Part shown: one piece after another, positions 1,440 to 9,076 of the stretch | How positions within the stretch are numbered: the first letter of the stretch is position 1 | Layout of the letters: each line of letters starts with the position of its first letter | Assembly: GCF_024696245.1 (NCBI RefSeq) | Contig: NZ_JAILGZ010000162.1 | Location: forward strand, 1 to 60,163 | DNA from: Treponema sp. | GTDB lineage: Bacteria; Spirochaetota; Spirochaetia; Treponematales; Treponemataceae | Direction of reading: 5' to 3' | DNA length: 60,163 nt | The notes under the pieces: model-generated | The model's database searches: none | The model's input: only the letters and a program-made list of their open reading frames with translations | Told to the model about the DNA's origin: nothing | Position numbers and translations under genes: made by a program

Positions 1440-3536
1440 TTACTTTGACTGTTCTTCTACAGCATCAATGTAAGAAAGGTTAAGACGGCCCATCTTGTCA
1501 ACTTCAAGAAGTTTAACAGGAACGCTCTGACCTTCCTTAAGTACGTCAGTTACTTTTTCTACACGCTGACGGCTGAGCTTTGAAATATGACAGAGACCTT
1601 CTTTTCCTGGAAGAATCTCAATGAATGCTCCAAAGTCCATGATGCGCTTTACAGTTCCCTGGTAAATTGTTCCAACTTCTGGATCTTCACAAATACCCTT
1701 GATTGCTTTTTTAGCTGCATCAGTAGCATTACCAGTCTTACCGTAAATTGTTACAGTACCATCATCTTCAGTATTGATTGTTACACCATACTGCTGGCAG
1801 AGAGCCTTAACATTCTTTCCGCCTGGTCCAATAAGGGCACCAATCTTATCAACAGCAATTTTCATTGTGTCAATTTTTGGTGCATAAGGACTGATTGGCT
1901 GTGGCTTGTTAATGCATTTTTCCATGATGCCAAGGATATGTTCACGACCACGCTTTGCCTGAGCAAGAGCCTTGCGCATAATATCCATAGAAACACCGGC
2001 AATTTTAATATCCATCTGGAATCCGGTAATACCGTCATGTGTTCCGGCTACCTTAAAGTCCATGTCTCCAAGGTGATCTTCTTCTCCAAGAATATCAGAA
2101 AGGATTGCATACTTCTTGTACTGAGGTCCGTCTGTAATAAGACCCATGGCAATACCGGCAACCATCTTCTTTAATGGAACACCAGCTGCAAGAAGGGAAA
2201 GACAGCCACCACAAGTAGAAGCCTGTGAAGAAGAACCGTTTGATTCCATGATTTCTGATACAACACGAATTGTATAAGGGAATTCTGCACGGCTAGGAAT
2301 CATTGGAGCAAGTGAACGGCGGGCAAGATTTCCGTGACCGATTTCACGGCGGCCAGTTGTAAGCTTACCAACTTCACCTACTGAATATGGAGGGAAGTTA
2401 TAGTGAAGGATAAAGTTTTCACTTCTGTCTCCTTCAATATCATCATATACCTGTTCATCCATTGCTGTACCAAGAGTTGTAACAGCAAGAGACTGAGTTT
2501 CACCACGGGTAAAGAGTGCTGATCCATGTGGACGTGGAAGAACGTTAACTTCACATGTAATAGGACGAATATCTTCTGTTCCACGACCGTCAATACGAAG
2601 ACCCTTTTCAAGAATGCTTGAACGAAGAAGGTCGTACTGCATGTCGTCAAAAAGTGTACCGAAAAGCTTAGCCTGTACAGGATCTTCAAGCTGTTCAGCG
2701 TATTTTTCTGCAATCTGGTTCTTTACAGCCTTAACTGCTTCACCACGAGCCTGCTTTCCTTTAAGGAAGCATGCTGTCTGCATAAGTGGAAGAGCTTCTG
2801 CCTTAATTGCATCAGCATTTGCAAGTTCAACATTAAGAGGTGCAAGTGGAAGCTTTTCTTTTCCGGCAAGCTTAACAAGTTCTTCCTGAAGAAGACACAT
2901 ATCTGTAATAAAGCCCTGAGCCTTTTCAAGAGCACCAAGCATTACTTCTTCAGAAACTTCGTTAGCACCACCTTCTACCATTGTAAAGCCGTCTTTTGTT
3001 CCGGCAACAACGATTTCAAGCTGAACTTTTTCCATCTGTTCATATGTAGGATTGATTACATATTCACCATCAATATATCCAACACGACATCCTGCAACAG
3101 GACCGTGGAAAGGAATGTCCGAAATAGAAACTGCAGCAGATGCAGCAATAACTGCAAGAATATCAGGTGGATTTACACCATCAACTGAAACACAAGTTGG
3201 TACAATCTGAATTTCACGACCAAAAGCTGTTTCAAAAAGAGGACGCATAGGACGGTCAATAAGGCGGCTTACAAGAATTTCCTTATCCTTTGGACGTCCT
3301 TCTCTCTTAACAAATCCTCCAGGGATTTTTCCGGCAGCATAGAATTTTTCGTTGTATTCTACTGTTACTGGAACAAAGTCAAGGCCTTCCTTAACTTCAC
3401 TTGATGCACAAACTGTAGCAATTACTGATGTTCCGCCAATCTGAGCATAAACACATCCGTTTGCCTGTTTTCCGATTTTACCAGTCTCAAGAATGAGTTC
3501 CTGGTCTCCGATCTTACGGGTTACTCTCTGTACCAT
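1440..3536 (-). CDS. pnp: Polyribonucleotide nucleotidyltransferase (PNPase)
   Basis: 698 residues, the normal length. It degrades RNA 3' to 5' with phosphate and is the core exonuclease of bacterial mRNA turnover. The order is standard: first RNase PH-like domain (IDRPMRPLF at about 90-100), helical linker, second RNase PH-like domain (LRIDGRGTEDIRP; SNGSSSQASTCGG active-site region), KH domain with GPGGKNVK, and C-terminal S1 domain (DFGAFIEILPGKEGLCHIS). The ATG at 3534-3536 follows TAAGGAA at proper distance and matches the family N-terminus (MVQRVTRKIG); an upstream in-frame ATG would add 15 unconserved residues. It sits 188 bases after rpsO, separated by a terminator. The leader holds a small TTCCG/CGGAA stem, of interest because pnp leaders are often autoregulated. 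Confidence 0.97.
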   Translation of the reverse strand: MVQRVTRKIGDQELILETGKIGKQANGCVYAQIGGTSVIATVCASSEVKEGLDFVPVTVEYNEKFYAAGKIPGGFVKREGRPKDKEILVSRLIDRPMRPLFETAFGREIQIVPTCVSVDGVNPPDILAVIAASAAVSISDIPFHGPVAGCRVGYIDGEYVINPTYEQMEKVQLEIVVAGTKDGFTMVEGGANEVSEEVMLGALEKAQGFITDMCLLQEELVKLAGKEKLPLAPLNVELANADAIKAEALPLMQTACFLKGKQARGEAVKAVKNQIAEKYAEQLEDPVQAKLFGTLFDDMQYDLLRSSILEKGLRIDGRGTEDIRPITCEVNVLPRPHGSALFTRGETQSLAVTTLGTAMDEQVYDDIEGDRSENFILHYNFPPYSVGEVGKLTTGRREIGHGNLARRSLAPMIPSRAEFPYTIRVVSEIMESNGSSSQASTCGGCLSLLAAGVPLKKMVAGIAMGLITDGPQYKKYAILSDILGEEDHLGDMDFKVAGTHDGITGFQMDIKIAGVSMDIMRKALAQAKRGREHILGIMEKCINKPQPISPYAPKIDTMKIAVDKIGALIGPGGKNVKALCQQYGVTINTEDDGTVTIYGKTGNATDAAKKAIKGICEDPEVGTIYQGTVKRIMDFGAFIEILPGKEGLCHISKLSRQRVEKVTDVLKEGQSVPVKLLEVDKMGRLNLSYIDAVEEQSK

Positions 3537-3669
3537 AAAATTTTCCTTAATTCTTTTTTGTTCTTTTTTTTTCTGCAGCACTCAGATTACCTAAATCACT
3601 GCAAGGTATATTCCGTTTGAACAGCCGGAATCACCGTTTTTCTTCAGTATGGAAGCAAAATCACAGAAA

Positions 3670-3723: not shown

Positions 3724-3993
3724 TTACTTACGGATACCAAGTTCCTTAATAAGAGCTCTGTAACCTTCAAGGTTTGTACGCTGGAAATACTTAAGAAGCT
3801 TTCTGCGTGCACCAACTACCTTAAGAAGACCACGTGATGCGCTTGTATCCTTAGGGAATGCCTTGCAGTGCTCTGTGAGCTGCTTGATACGTTCAGTCAT
3901 AAGTGCAATCTGAACTTTTGTGTTTCCGGTGTCATTTGCATTTGCACCGAATTTGCTTACGATTGAAGCAGATGTTTCTTTTGTAAGTGCCAT
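3724..3993 (-). CDS. rpsO: 30S ribosomal protein S15
   Basis: 89 residues, the usual S15 length, with family features: TGNTKVQIALMTERI, a TEHCKAFPKD helix-turn segment, RGLLKVVGARRKLLKY, and a C-terminal IKELGIRK. S15 is a primary 16S rRNA-binding protein. The ATG is preceded by AGGAG at 8 bases. It is the last gene of the rimP-nusA-infB-rbfA-truB/ribF operon, 45 bases after the TruB-RibF fusion, and is followed by a strong terminator. Confidence 0.97.
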   Translation of the reverse strand: MALTKETSASIVSKFGANANDTGNTKVQIALMTERIKQLTEHCKAFPKDTSASRGLLKVVGARRKLLKYFQRTNLEGYRALIKELGIRK

Positions 3994-4038: not shown

Positions 4039-5925
4039 TCACAAAGTAACATTAGGTTTGTAAACAAACTTTATCTCTGTAAGACGCCTTGCAGTGTCCA
4101 GTGTAGGTAAAAGAACTTCTACCCTTGTACCGGTAACAAAAAGACTTGTATGGAGAATGTTTTCTCCAAGACCGGCAACTACATCATAAGTACCGTTCTG
4201 TGGAAGAAGCTGACCGCTTTTTACATCAGAAGCAAACCATTCCATCATAGGATCAGAAGATTTTCTCTCTGACAAAGTCATTTCCATCTGACTGCAATCC
4301 AGAGTAAAAACTCCGGCAAGCATTTTCTGAACAGAAGCAAAATCACCTTTTTTAACAGCCTGCCTTATTAAGGAAGAACTGATACTCTGCCCTTCTGCAC
4401 AAACCTTTTCTACCTTACAGAAAAGAAATCCCAGCTTTTCAGAAAGTTCCTGTAAAGCCTGTGAATCAGTAAGCCCCTTATAGCCGCACCTGAAATCTGA
4501 ACCTTCAGCCATCATTTTCATTCCTGCTGATGTTACCAGTGCAGAGACAAAAGACTCGCCGTCAATTTTACTGAAATCCTCAGAAAAGTCAATGAGCACG
4601 GCAAAATCAAGGCCGGCTTCTTCTACAGAAGCAAGTTTCTGTTTTAAAGTCATTACATCACCTTCGTAATGACCGGTCCTGTTTTTTATCAGATCACCAG
4701 GGCGGGTAAAAGTAACAAGCCCCTTAACAGAACAGGAACTTTCCTTTACCCTGTCAATTAAAGCCCTGTGCCCCCTGTGCATTCCGTCAAAATTACCTAC
4801 AGTCAGGGCAGTTCCCATATTCTTCCAGATTAAAGGAAACTCTCCCCTTACCAGTTCTTCCCAGGTAAAGACCTTAAGCTTTTTTTTCTGTTTAGGAACA
4901 ACAAATCCATAAAAAAGCCTGTGTTCAGGATTAAGCCTTATCATCCCTGCAAAAGTTTTATCTGAATAAAATACAGCTATTTCCTTATCTTTAATCGTAC
5001 AGGGAGCTTCGTTAACGCCGGTAGTTATTCTGTTAAACATACTTCCGGATAAAGGCCTTCCGTTAAGATAAGATTTTTCTGCATCCTTTTTAAGTTCACT
5101 TATTTCAAAGCCGCAGGTCTGGGCAAGTTCAGGAGTAAAATCCAGAAAATGACTTCTTATGTCCGTAAATACAGATTCAGGAGTAAGGCGTCTTCCTGTA
5201 TTTAAGCCTGAAAATTCCTTAGCATTATTTATACCATATTCAATAGTAAAGTCTTTAAAGGAAGAATAGCAGGAGGCATCTTTAAGTAAAAATGGTCCAA
5301 CCTGGGTACGTCTTAAAGCACAAAGGTAAGCACAGCTGCCTGCTGCCTTAGCCATATCCCTTGCAAGTGCCCTGATATAGGTACCCTTTGAACAGGTAAT
5401 TTCAAGAAGGGCATAGGAAAGTCCGTCATCACCTGCTTCCTTAAAATCAAGAAGCTGATTTTTATATATAAAGACCTGGCGGCTTTCAAGCTTAACCTGA
5501 CCACCACTGCGGATAATGTCACTGGCTCTTTTACCACCTGAATGAAGGGCTGAATAAACAGGCGGAACCTGAAGCTGAACTCCTGTAAACTGGGGTATAA
5601 TTTTTTCAAAATCTTCCCGGCTTACAGCAGGAGCTGTTTTTATAATCTGTCCTGAAGGATCAAGAGTATCTGTTTCTTTTCCTAAACAAACTACAGCCTG
5701 ATATGTTTTTGTAAATCCTGTTATATGAGGTACAAGGTGGGTAAGATGTCCGCTAAGGACAACAAGAAGTCCTTCTGCAAAAGAATCCAGCGTTCCTGTA
5801 TGACCGATTTTGTCAGTATTCAGGGCGTGCTTTATATCCCATAGTGAAGAAAAGCTGGTAATACCGGGAGTCTTTGCATAAAGAAGAATCCCGTCCCTTA
5901 CAGAAGTCCTTTTATTTTTTTTCAT
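4039..5925 (-). CDS. truB-ribF: TruB-RibF fusion: tRNA pseudouridine-55 synthase plus FAD synthetase-like domain
   Basis: A single 628-residue frame. Residues 10-345 are TruB: GHTGTLDSFAEG with catalytic Asp47, KTYQAVVCLG, VPPVYSALHSGGKRA, and GTYIRALARD at 181-190. Residues 370-540 are the nucleotidyltransferase half of RibF: GNFDGMHRGH at 377-386 with its H-x-G-H signature, DFRCGYKG at 477-484, and SISSSLIRQAVKKGD at 514-528. The last 90 residues take the place of the riboflavin kinase domain but lack its GxPTAN-type motif, so kinase activity is doubtful. The two activities (tRNA modification and FMN adenylylation) are unrelated, but truB and ribF are neighbours in many bacteria, including T. 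pallidum as I recall. The frame is open throughout, so this is a true gene fusion in this sequence. Confidence 0.92.
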   Translation of the reverse strand: MKKNKRTSVRDGILLYAKTPGITSFSSLWDIKHALNTDKIGHTGTLDSFAEGLLVVLSGHLTHLVPHITGFTKTYQAVVCLGKETDTLDPSGQIIKTAPAVSREDFEKIIPQFTGVQLQVPPVYSALHSGGKRASDIIRSGGQVKLESRQVFIYKNQLLDFKEAGDDGLSYALLEITCSKGTYIRALARDMAKAAGSCAYLCALRRTQVGPFLLKDASCYSSFKDFTIEYGINNAKEFSGLNTGRRLTPESVFTDIRSHFLDFTPELAQTCGFEISELKKDAEKSYLNGRPLSGSMFNRITTGVNEAPCTIKDKEIAVFYSDKTFAGMIRLNPEHRLFYGFVVPKQKKKLKVFTWEELVRGEFPLIWKNMGTALTVGNFDGMHRGHRALIDRVKESSCSVKGLVTFTRPGDLIKNRTGHYEGDVMTLKQKLASVEEAGLDFAVLIDFSEDFSKIDGESFVSALVTSAGMKMMAEGSDFRCGYKGLTDSQALQELSEKLGFLFCKVEKVCAEGQSISSSLIRQAVKKGDFASVQKMLAGVFTLDCSQMEMTLSERKSSDPMMEWFASDVKSGQLLPQNGTYDVVAGLGENILHTSLFVTGTRVEVLLPTLDTARRLTEIKFVYKPNVTL

Positions 5926-5935
5926 TTATTTTAAT

Positions 5936-6346
5936 TTACTCTTTATCGTCTGAATCTTCGTTTTCGTTTTCATCTGCCTGAGATTCACGGGCTTTTGATT
6001 CAGCTTCAAGGGCATTAAGCTTCTGAACCATTTTATAGCCTTCCTTCATGCTGAAATCTGCTACGAAAGTAAGACGTGGAAAACGGAAAACAGAAAGTTT
6101 TTTTGCTATTGAACACTGAATAAAACCAGCTGCACTCTGAAGTCCGGCAACACCTCTTTTTACAGAGGCATCGTCCATAAATGATGATACAAATACTTTT
6201 GCATAGGCAAGGTCGCCTGCTACTTCTACTCTGTCAATGGAAAGGAATTCACTTACGCGGGGATCCTTAATCTCATGACGGAGGAGCATAAGTGAAATTT
6301 CCTGTCTGAGCTGTTCACCCAGACGTAACAATCTGTACTGTCCCAT
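5936..6346 (-). CDS. rbfA: 30S ribosome-binding factor A
   Basis: 136 residues with the RbfA fold signature: YRLLRLGEQLRQEISLMLLRHEIKDPRVSE at the N-terminus (cited in part), VEVAGDLAYAKVFVS, and FRFPRLTFVADFSMKEGYKM near the end. It is a KH-type protein that assists late 16S rRNA maturation of the small subunit. The first base follows the infB stop directly, so translation is probably coupled. The C-terminus is an acidic tail rich in Glu and Asp. The next gene, the TruB-RibF fusion, begins 10 bases downstream. Confidence 0.93.
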   Translation of the reverse strand: MGQYRLLRLGEQLRQEISLMLLRHEIKDPRVSEFLSIDRVEVAGDLAYAKVFVSSFMDDASVKRGVAGLQSAAGFIQCSIAKKLSVFRFPRLTFVADFSMKEGYKMVQKLNALEAESKARESQADENENEDSDDKE

Positions 6347-9076
6347 TTAGTTTTCCTGACTTTCTGAAGCAGCCTGTTTCTTTTCTGCTTCTGCCTGCTC
6401 TTCTGCAAGAGTCTGGCCAAGCTTACGTTTAACTTCAATATATTCAAAGGCTTCGATTGTATCGCCAACCTGAATATCCTGCCAGTTTTCAATACCAAGA
6501 CCACACTCAAAGCCTTCACGAACTTCTTTTGCATCATCCTTGAAACGCTTGAGGGAAGAAACCTTAGCTGCAGAACAAACTACTACACCATCACGGATAA
6601 CATTTACGAAGCTTGATCTCTTAACAATACCGTCGCGAACCATACATCCTGCAATAAGTCCAACCTTTGGAACCTTGAATGTATTAAGAACTTCGATAGT
6701 ACCTGTAACTTCTTCTTTTGTATCCGGCTGAAGCATACCTTCCATAGCCTGCTGAATCTCTTCAACACACTTGTAGATAATATTGTATTTGCGGATTTCT
6801 ACCTTTTCCTGTTCAGCAAGAGCCTTGGCTTTTGGAGTAGGACGTACATTAAATCCGATAATAATTGCATTTGAGTCAGCAGCTGCAAGGGTAACGTCAC
6901 TTTCGTTAATTGCACCTGCGCTTGAATGAATTACAGAAAGGCGGATTTCTTTAGTAGAAAGTTTTTCAAGGGAAGATTTAAGTGCTTCTGCAGAACCCTG
7001 AAGGTCAGCCTTAATAATAACCTTGAATTCCTTAACTTCACTGGCTTCGATTGTAGAGTAAAGATTATCAAGAGTAACTTTCTTAACAGCCTTTGCATCT
7101 TCAAAGCGCTTAAGTTCCTGACGTTTAGCTGCAAATGCACGGGCATCCTTTTCGCTTTCTGTTACCTGGAATGGATCGCCGGCATTAGGCATGCTTTCAA
7201 TACCAAGAACTTCAACAGGGGTACAAGGACCTGCTTCTGAAATCTTCTGTCCCTTATCATTAAACATGGCACGTACACGGCCTGAATAAATACCAGCAAC
7301 AAAAGGATCTCCAGTCTTAAGGGTACCACGTTCTACGATAACAGATGCTACAACACCACGACCCTGATCAATGCGGGATTCAATTACCTTACCTTCTGCA
7401 CGACAGTCATACTGTGCCTTAAGTTCAAGCATTTCTGCCTGAATAAGAACTGCATCAAGAAGATCATCAATACCTTCACGCTTAAGGGCAGAAATATTTA
7501 CATACTGAGTATCTCCACCCCAGGCTTCAGGAGTAAGTCCCTGTTCAGAAAGCTGAGTCATAACACGTTCCGGATTAGCATCAGGTTTATCCATCTTGTT
7601 AACGGCAACAATAATAGGAACCTTTGCATCTTTTGCATGGTGAATGGCTTCAAGAGTCTGAGGCATTACACCGTCATCAGCTGCAACTACAAGAATAACG
7701 ATATCTGTAATCTGGGCTCCACGGGCACGCATCATTGTAAATGCTTCATGTCCAGGAGTATCAAGGAAAGTAATGTCTCCCTTAGGAGTAGAAACCCTGT
7801 AAGCACCGATTTTCTGAGTAATACCACCGGCTTCTCCTGCTGCAACGTTTGCATCACGAATAGCATCAAGAGTCTTTGTCTTACCATGGTCTACGTGACC
7901 CATAACAGTAACGATCGGAGGACGTGTACGTTCACCTTCTGCATTACCCTTATCACTTTCAATAACTGTTTCATCGTAAAGACTGATAAGGTGTACCTTA
8001 CAGTTATATTCTTCTGCAAGAATTGTTGCTGTATCAGAATCGATTGACTGGTTGATTGTTACCATCATACCCATCGACATGAGCTTACCGATGATTTCTC
8101 CAGCCTTAAGGTTCATCTTGCGGGCAAGGTCAGAAACAGAAATTGTTTCCATAATATCGATTGTTGAAGGTACTACATTTGCAGGAGTAGCTTCCTTCTT
8201 TTTCTTGTAAAGTTCTTCCTCGTCGAAGAATTCTTCTTTATCCTTGCGCTGTGAATAATCCTGCTTCTTTCCCTTAAACTGTTTCTTAGCAGGAGTTTTG
8301 CCCTGTGGAATTGCTGAAGGAGCTGAAAATCCGCCGCCACCAAAAGAAGGACGGTTTCCTCCAAATCCACCCTGGCGGTTTCCGTTGTTATTGAATCCGC
8401 CCGGACGGTTATTGTTAAATCCACCCTGGCGATTTCCGTTGTTATTGAATCCGCCCTGACGGTTATTGTTAAATCCACCCTGGCGATTTCCATTATTATT
8501 AAATCCGCCCTGACGGTTTCCATTATTATTAAATCCGCCCTGACGATTATTGTTATAGCCGCCGCTGCGTTCACGGTTCTGATAGCCTTCACGGGCCTGA
8601 GCACCTGTAAAGCCTGAACCACGGTTATTTCCGTAATTGTTATTGTAACGGTTGCCATAACCGCCCCTGTTACCGGAACCGCTTAAGTTTCCGGCCCTTA
8701 CATTAGGACGGGTTGTATTAAGTTCAAATGACTGACGCTGTGGTCTGTTCTGCTGAGGACGTTCGTATGAAGAATCTCCCTTACGGTCAGCTGATTTTTC
8801 CTGAGCTGAAGCAGGTTTTACTGCTGCAGGTTTAGCAGTCTGTGCTGACTGCTGTACAGGAGTCTCTGCTGCCTTTTCAGAGGCCGGCTTTTCTTCCGGC
8901 TTAGGGGATGACTCAGCAGGCTTCTTAGTAACGACCCTTACTGCTACTTTTTTCTGTTTATCAGAAGCAGCAGGCTTTCGTTTAACTACGACAACCTTTT
9001 TTTCAGACTGAGTTTCCGGTTTCTTTTCTTTTTTGATTACCACAAATTCTGGCTTTTTTTCTGATTCATCCGCCAT
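6347..9076 (-). CDS. infB: Translation initiation factor IF-2
   Basis: 909 residues. IF-2 is a GTPase that places initiator tRNA on the 30S subunit. The N-terminus is a long Lys/Pro/Ala-rich extension followed by a low-complexity Asn/Gly/Arg/Gln tract (residues 169-242, units like [10 protein letters not shown]). An IF2 N-terminal domain follows ([21 protein letters not shown]). The GTPase domain has G1 GHVDHGKT, G3 DTPGHE and G4 NKMD, and domains II-IV end in the conserved C2 region. The bacterial IF-2 core is complete. nusA is 9 bases upstream and rbfA abuts downstream. The repeat tract is coded by near-identical DNA units and should vary between strains. Confidence 0.96.
8350..8572 (-). 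repeat. Minisatellite inside infB coding Asn/Gly/Arg-rich units
   Basis: Imperfect tandem units of 24 and 30 bases encode alternating GGFNNNRQ and [10 protein letters not shown] over residues about 169-242 of IF-2. All units stay in frame because both lengths are multiples of three. Such arrays change copy number by slippage. The opposite-strand and shifted frames through it are shadows. Confidence 0.85.

Follow-up and report, generated by a model that had tools for sequence, protein, structure and literature searches.

The gene studied here, from the genome of a gut Treponema sp., probably encodes TruB fused to a monofunctional type II FMN adenylyltransferase, with FMN supplied by a separate kinase that is non-homologous to the known riboflavin kinases (RFKs). 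TruB is the tRNA pseudouridine-55 synthase, and FMN is essential. It is proposed that the cell would make riboflavin by its own rib operon, that the separate kinase would turn riboflavin into FMN, and that the fused protein would then make FAD from FMN. The RFK-descended barrel of the protein would be dead and may be kept for stability or assembly of the adenylyltransferase or for flavin contact. The Spirochaetia, a bacterial class that includes the syphilis agent, seemingly lack any known riboflavin kinase, though many members make riboflavin. The missing enzyme is a defined question with a concrete candidate, a spirochaete flavin step differing from that of the host is indicated, and the findings warn against annotating type II genes as 'bifunctional RibF'. 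In the open-access literature no paper was found on a missing or an FGGY riboflavin kinase in spirochaetes.

The fused gene and its distribution

The window, the whole stretch of DNA that was analysed, comprises 60,163 nucleotides. The fused gene is housed in a translation operon with the order rimP-nusA-infB-rbfA-truB-rpsO-pnp, the names being given by sequence reading (Table 1); the order from infB to pnp matches that of other spirochaetes. The N-terminal part of InfB (region 8173-8658, minus strand) contains Gly/Asn-rich low-complexity repeats. The initial annotation described a single frame joining tRNA pseudouridine synthase and FAD nucleotidyltransferase, and the ORF, Pfam and NCBIfam agree on this. 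Pfam matches to TruB_N (E 4e-42) and FAD_syn (E 8e-31) were found at residues 32-184 and 369-518, and the TruB equivalog TIGR00431 of NCBIfam scored 212.2 bits against a cut-off of 151.45. For the same 628-aa protein every score of the NCBIfam RibF equivalogs was far under the cut-off, and the Pfam search gave no match to Flavokinase (PF01687) at E<=1. Since residues 336-369 contain no ATG, GTG or TTG codon, the FAD synthetase (FADS) half is presumably made within the fusion, and a separate translation start for it appears unlikely.

Table 1 Positions of the fused gene, its domains and motifs, and the neighbouring genes in the window
Feature	Coordinates	Strand	Basis
Fused gene truB-ribF (type II), 628 aa	4039..5925	-	ORF, ATG to stop
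TruB part, residues 1-345 (TruB_N 32-184 = 5374-5832)	4891..5925	-	Pfam, TIGR00431; exact border read by eye from alignment
FMN adenylyltransferase (FAD_syn) domain, residues 369-518	4372..4821	-	Pfam
HxGH motif, residues 383-386 (HRGH)	4768..4779	-	Conservation in 57 relatives
SSSxxR motif, residues 516-521	4363..4380	-	Conservation in 57 relatives
Probable vestigial RFK barrel, residues 537-628, without PTAN and without conserved catalytic Glu	4042..4317	-	AlphaFold2, structure superposition, PF01687 search
QxLPxxGxY strand, residues 572-580, counterpart of RFK GxY motif, kept	4186..4212	-	Conservation; aligns to CaFADS LPADGVYA
rpsO, downstream	3724..3993	-	Homologue at same site in most truB loci compared
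pnp	1440..3581	-	Gene order common to other spirochaetes
rbfA, upstream	5936..6346	-	Gene order common to other spirochaetes
infB	6347..9076	-	Gene order common to other spirochaetes

A scan of public genomes yielded 80 loci, the titles of which are Treponema or other spirochaetes. TruB and FADS were found in a single frame in 42 of these loci, among them that of the isolate T. berlinense; truB and FADS genes are adjacent but unfused in 5/80, and FADS lies distant from truB in 33/80. A sequencing error joining two genes, which had been raised as an alternative, is ruled out because the identical fusion occurs in all of those 42 loci. Among the nearest genomes fused and unfused states are mixed inside the genus. 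Only part of the genus has the TruB fusion; the absence of the kinase site is an old trait of nearly the whole class.

In the genus members covered by both the fusion and the RfuA surveys the importer RfuA was absent from 8/8 fused genomes (G028 has one weak match, E 4e-14) and present in 8/8 unfused genomes, counts that take no account of kinship. This pairing of fusion with absence of RfuA may be plain shared descent.

Motifs and fold of the FADS half

The adenylyltransferase site of the protein is strongly conserved. His383, Gly385 and His386 are invariant in 57/57 relatives, and so are Ser516-518; Arg521 was found in 52/57. The riboflavin kinase site is not kept. Of 47 different type I proteins in the phylum 46 contain the PTAN motif, and an HMM alignment of the 57 type II relatives against the FADS of C. 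ammoniagenes (CaFADS) showed PTAN to be absent at the loop position. A PTAN-like pattern gave 2 matches in these 57 proteins, and the one that was traced (L007, L309 likewise) is a PTIN in the C-terminal tail. The catalytic-Glu motif occurs in 41/47 type I proteins versus 0/57 type II proteins; in the Glu603 column, the nearest candidate for E268 of CaFADS, a Glu was found in 5/57. None of the 57 relatives matched PF01687 at E<=1. According to the available part of a study on CaFADS, mutation of T208, N210 or E268 impairs RFK activity, with E268 put forward as the base, and the isolated N-terminal domain is inactive (PMC2573891). RFK residues were also searched in PMC5544777, where no match was found, and in PMC6010069.

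The fold of the C-terminal module has been retained. The module is short, about 90 residues versus 124 positions in the RFK profile, and is predicted to form a compact barrel (AlphaFold2, mean pLDDT 95.7). Superposition of the model on both modules of CaFADS (2X0K) gave a Z of 26.4 and an rmsd of 2.9 over 265 residues, with the RFK module superposing, and the FADS of T. maritima (1T6Y) gave a Z of 22.8. Foldseek matched the model to CaFADS with E 2.9e-18, and the matches listed by the superposition search are FADS and pantothenate synthetases. The profile of the 57 relatives aligns with CaFADS through the LPADGVY strand, and within this strand Q572, P575 and G578 are each conserved in 56/57 relatives and Y580 in 54/57.

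The alignment and the motif counts bear out the initial annotation in that the C-terminal ~90 residues lack the kinase PTAN motif, and the catalytic-Glu motif is gone too. Its description of an eroded kinase half holds for the loss of the active site; the loss is not peculiar to one gene, being an old state of nearly the whole class. An intact flavokinase fold complete with active-site residues would have spoken for a working kinase; the model keeps the fold, and the active-site residues are gone. The C-terminal barrel is most likely a catalytically dead RFK kept as support for the adenylyltransferase. Against this reading stands that the barrel is well folded and that its QxLPxxGxY strand is nearly invariant, which need not hold for a dead relic.

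Riboflavin supply and the missing kinase

The assembly of the own genome consists of 163 contigs and is 98.98% complete. It harbours ribD, ribE, ribBA and ribH in one run, a complete ribD-E-BA-H operon, with no kinase gene carried among them. For three of the four Rib proteins both copies from the same genus are the nearest ones, and for RibD one of the two is, so the operon is not a contamination. RfuA gave no match at E<=1e-10 in this genome; some match is present in 100/118 genomes of the family, the weak ones being taken as other proteins of the same family. Neither a PF01687 kinase nor the CTP-dependent RFK (PF01982) was found in the 163 contigs.

In the phylum, PF01687 was found over cut-off in 183/392 genomes. 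Within the class it is limited to 6/148 genomes and absent from 142/148, including single-contig ones, and the same search was positive in 10/14 control genomes. CTP-dependent RFK was found in 0/148 class genomes by a PF01982 search that was positive in its control genomes. FAD_syn is present in 99/148 and lumazine synthase RibH in 82/148 class genomes. RibH occurs without PF01687 over cut-off in 79/148; 55 of these genomes, among which the own genome, have FAD_syn and 24 do not. The 24 riboflavin makers without FAD_syn and without a known flavokinase are represented by e.g. G380, G425, G436, G441 and G406. A gene taking the place of ribF in FAD_syn-less genomes was looked for and rejected, as rpsO comes immediately after truB in 27 readable loci; in some loci of this survey a longer antisense ORF obscured rpsO, and G409 shows a different ORF at this site. 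Several type II lineages possess a second, intact RFK, either as a type I copy alongside (G148, G444) or, in family f13, as a separate PF01687 protein, which suggests that type II does not supply RFK activity.

Some further genes were observed in these neighbourhoods. A gene for an APC-family-like permease, named by eye and possibly a flavin transporter, adjoins or lies near PF01687 matches in three lineages (L125, L129, L130). Two kinds of ORF flank rfuA in Treponemataceae (loci L422, L423, L428-L432, L434 and L435): those of cluster C3 (9 loci) are small and regulator-like, ~150 aa, and those of cluster C2 (12 loci) encode a membrane protein of ~265 aa.

Imported FMN had been suggested in the initial annotation as the source for FAD synthesis. 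This does not suffice as an explanation, because a riboflavin-making cell requires a kinase for its product; the own ribD, ribE, ribBA and ribH would be pointless without one, and RfuA, the importer searched for, gave no match at E<=1e-10. Spirochaetes with only type II and no rib operon do exist, e.g. T. pallidum (G114, RibH absent), yet for the present genome the idea that FMN or FAD is imported and riboflavin kinase unneeded is scarcely credible. It is also very unlikely that a conventional flavokinase is present and escaped the search because of gaps in the assembly or very strong divergence: the own genome is indeed divided over many contigs, but the family is lacking over cut-off in nearly the whole class, single-contig genomes included, and most controls were positive. 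A different solution would be that the barrel of type II has diverged yet still works as a riboflavin kinase, with another phosphate-binding loop and QxLPxxGxY in its site, making the protein bifunctional. The confident prediction of the barrel, its superposition on CaFADS and TmFADS and the near invariance of Q572, P575, G578 and Y580 agree with this, and the missing kinase of the 55 genomes with RibH and FAD_syn would be dissolved. However, the PTAN loop and catalytic Glu, essential in CaFADS by the available account (PMC2573891), are absent, RFK activity was not observed in plant-like FADS that share this loss, in the 2010 account as far as accessible (PMC2972280), and the 24 genomes with RibH and neither FAD_syn nor RFK would be left unexplained. 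An active barrel is considered improbable. The other option of the initial annotation, another flavokinase, survives in altered form, as neither of the known families is represented in the own genome: we infer that an RFK non-homologous to the known families must exist.

A candidate kinase of the FGGY family

In a survey of FMN riboswitches at 30 loci, rib genes followed at 25, rfu genes at 2 and nothing labelled at 3; at 20 longer loci, judged by clusters and reading, these numbers were 17, 2 and 1. As pointers to a kinase the riboswitches were rejected, only the rfu operons of G304 and (by coordinates) G479 carrying one. In G304 an FMN riboswitch precedes rfuABCD, and a coupled gene for an FGGY kinase comes next; the RfuA encoded matches the T. 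pallidum structure 4IIL with E 5e-86. T. pallidum RfuA binds riboflavin, according to the accessible part of the report (PMC4418817).

The signature RAGTSEG of this candidate (GNGP...RAGTSEGIN) was readable in 91 loci of 90 genomes. Of these loci 17 lie in ADH-FGGY-DeoC aldolase cassettes, and the other 74 were counted for linkage. The QMHG of xylulokinase, which we take to be the xylulose-binding motif, has become GNGP in the candidates (P 73/73, G 69/72, N 56/72), and the Asp that is presumably the catalytic residue is kept in 74/74 loci. The candidate thus resembles XylB-type kinases (2ITM) in its FGGY family and catalytic Asp; it differs in having GNGP for QMHG and RAGTSEG for GTSG, and in scoring far under the XylB equivalog cut-off. 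The solved structures closest to it are those of sugar and glycerol kinases. Among the matches listed, the candidate is present in at least 52 of the 79 genomes with RibH and no RFK, and in at least 21 of the 24 that lack FAD_syn as well; it was not seen in 27/79 among the matches listed, in which weak ones are not displayed. It was found in 0/6 PF01687-positive genomes among the matches listed, of which G276 and G320 have an ordinary xylulokinase and the others were visible in part. The own genome has two FGGY matches, the readable one being an ordinary xylulokinase (571 bits versus a cut-off of 380), and the candidate was not found in this match or in 7 contig stretches (93 kb).

Genes of rfu were found at <=2.5 kb from the candidate in 38/74 loci (16 families, T. 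pallidum among them), divergent in 32 and on the same strand in 6. The prs gene adjoins the candidate in 45/74 loci (14 families). Both rfu and prs are near in 22 loci and neither in 13, some of which are cut by contig ends; rfu neighbours without prs occur in 16 loci, including operon-mates and directly divergent genes. Nearness to rfu amounts to 24/59 when the 15 loci chosen or spotted because a riboswitch or rfuA was near are dropped, and to 32/64 when the sugar-cassette clade and three odd members are left out. In T. pallidum (G114) the order is prs, FGGY, coaE, one ORF and rfuABCD, its RfuA being identical to 4IIL over residues 24-348. In a phylogenetic tree the T. pallidum FGGY groups with the prs-linked FGGY of family f19 (0.965). 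The cases with rfu in the same operon (G304, G479, G277, G309 and G459) are placed inside the clade of sugar-type ADH-aldolase cassettes, and the prs-linked and divergent cases, T. pallidum included, form the remainder. A role of the FGGY enzyme as a pure riboflavin kinase is complicated by the prs linkage and by this placement of the rfu operon-mates.

It may tentatively be suggested that the missing kinase of the class is this FGGY-family kinase linked to rfuABCD and prs. A broader and still more speculative scenario is that in Spirochaetia, T. pallidum included, the RFK half of RibF was replaced by an FGGY kinase phosphorylating the ribityl chain of riboflavin, and that the sister clade, which has ADH and a DeoC-type aldolase, represents a riboflavin-degrading cassette. 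If true, a third type of riboflavin kinase, unrelated to the two known ones, would exist. The identity of the kinase, though not the need for one, is contested by the view that the candidate is a sugar kinase of pentulose/ribose type that supplies PRPP synthase (prs) and lies near rfuABCD through inherited gene order. This could well be the case, without being the expected outcome: prs linkage is also found where rfu is absent (f6, f8, f10, f18), and the ADH-FGGY-DeoC aldolase operons of the sister clade and the nearest structures are in agreement with a sugar substrate. The 16 loci with rfu neighbours and no prs, the change of QMHG to GNGP with the low XylB score, and the FMN riboswitch upstream of the G304 operon argue against it.

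The cassettes at L224-L228 contain a zinc ADH, an FGGY kinase and a DeoC/LacD aldolase; an MFS-like protein is present in some, and three of these loci also have RfuC/D-like permeases. They partly resemble the fin neighbourhood of C. scindens, in which, as the accessible part of a preprint describes, an alcohol dehydrogenase and a class I aldolase lie beside a kinase gene; the fin genes are riboflavin-induced and the flavin-phosphorylating gene is a RibF homologue (PMC12934955). In contrast, the kinase of the spirochaetal cassette is FGGY and no RibF homologue. In C. ljungdahlii an FMN riboswitch precedes a 'putative carbohydrate kinase' (PMC4418817, accessible part). Both clostridial parallels may serve as leads only and are not tests.

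Comparison with known FAD synthetases

The fused protein has the fold of both modules in common with bifunctional RibF, or FADS-type I (2X0K, 1T6Y). It differs from type I in that the RFK active site is gone, in being about 60 residues shorter than CaFADS and in its fusion to TruB. Plant-like FADS (AtRibF1/2) likewise have a short C-terminal module and a changed PTAN with the GxY and PP motif kept, and their RFK activity was undetected by others, as stated in the accessible part of the 2010 account (PMC2972280). These are plastid proteins, however, and plants own a separate RFK (FHy/RFK), whereas here every known RFK is absent. The closest likeness is to FADS-type II, with adenylyltransferase motifs kept, PTAN lost, the C-terminal module shortened and a GxY-type strand kept (Yruela et al. 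2010, PMC2972280, as far as accessible). T. pallidum was listed in that account among the genomes with type II only; a TruB fusion is unmentioned in its accessible part. Most type II genomes described there also hold type I (PMC2972280), whereas in the class studied here type II as a rule occurs by itself. The kinase-less FADS half is a known variant, named FADS-type II in 2010, and the new point is the metabolic gap, riboflavin makers without a known riboflavin kinase.
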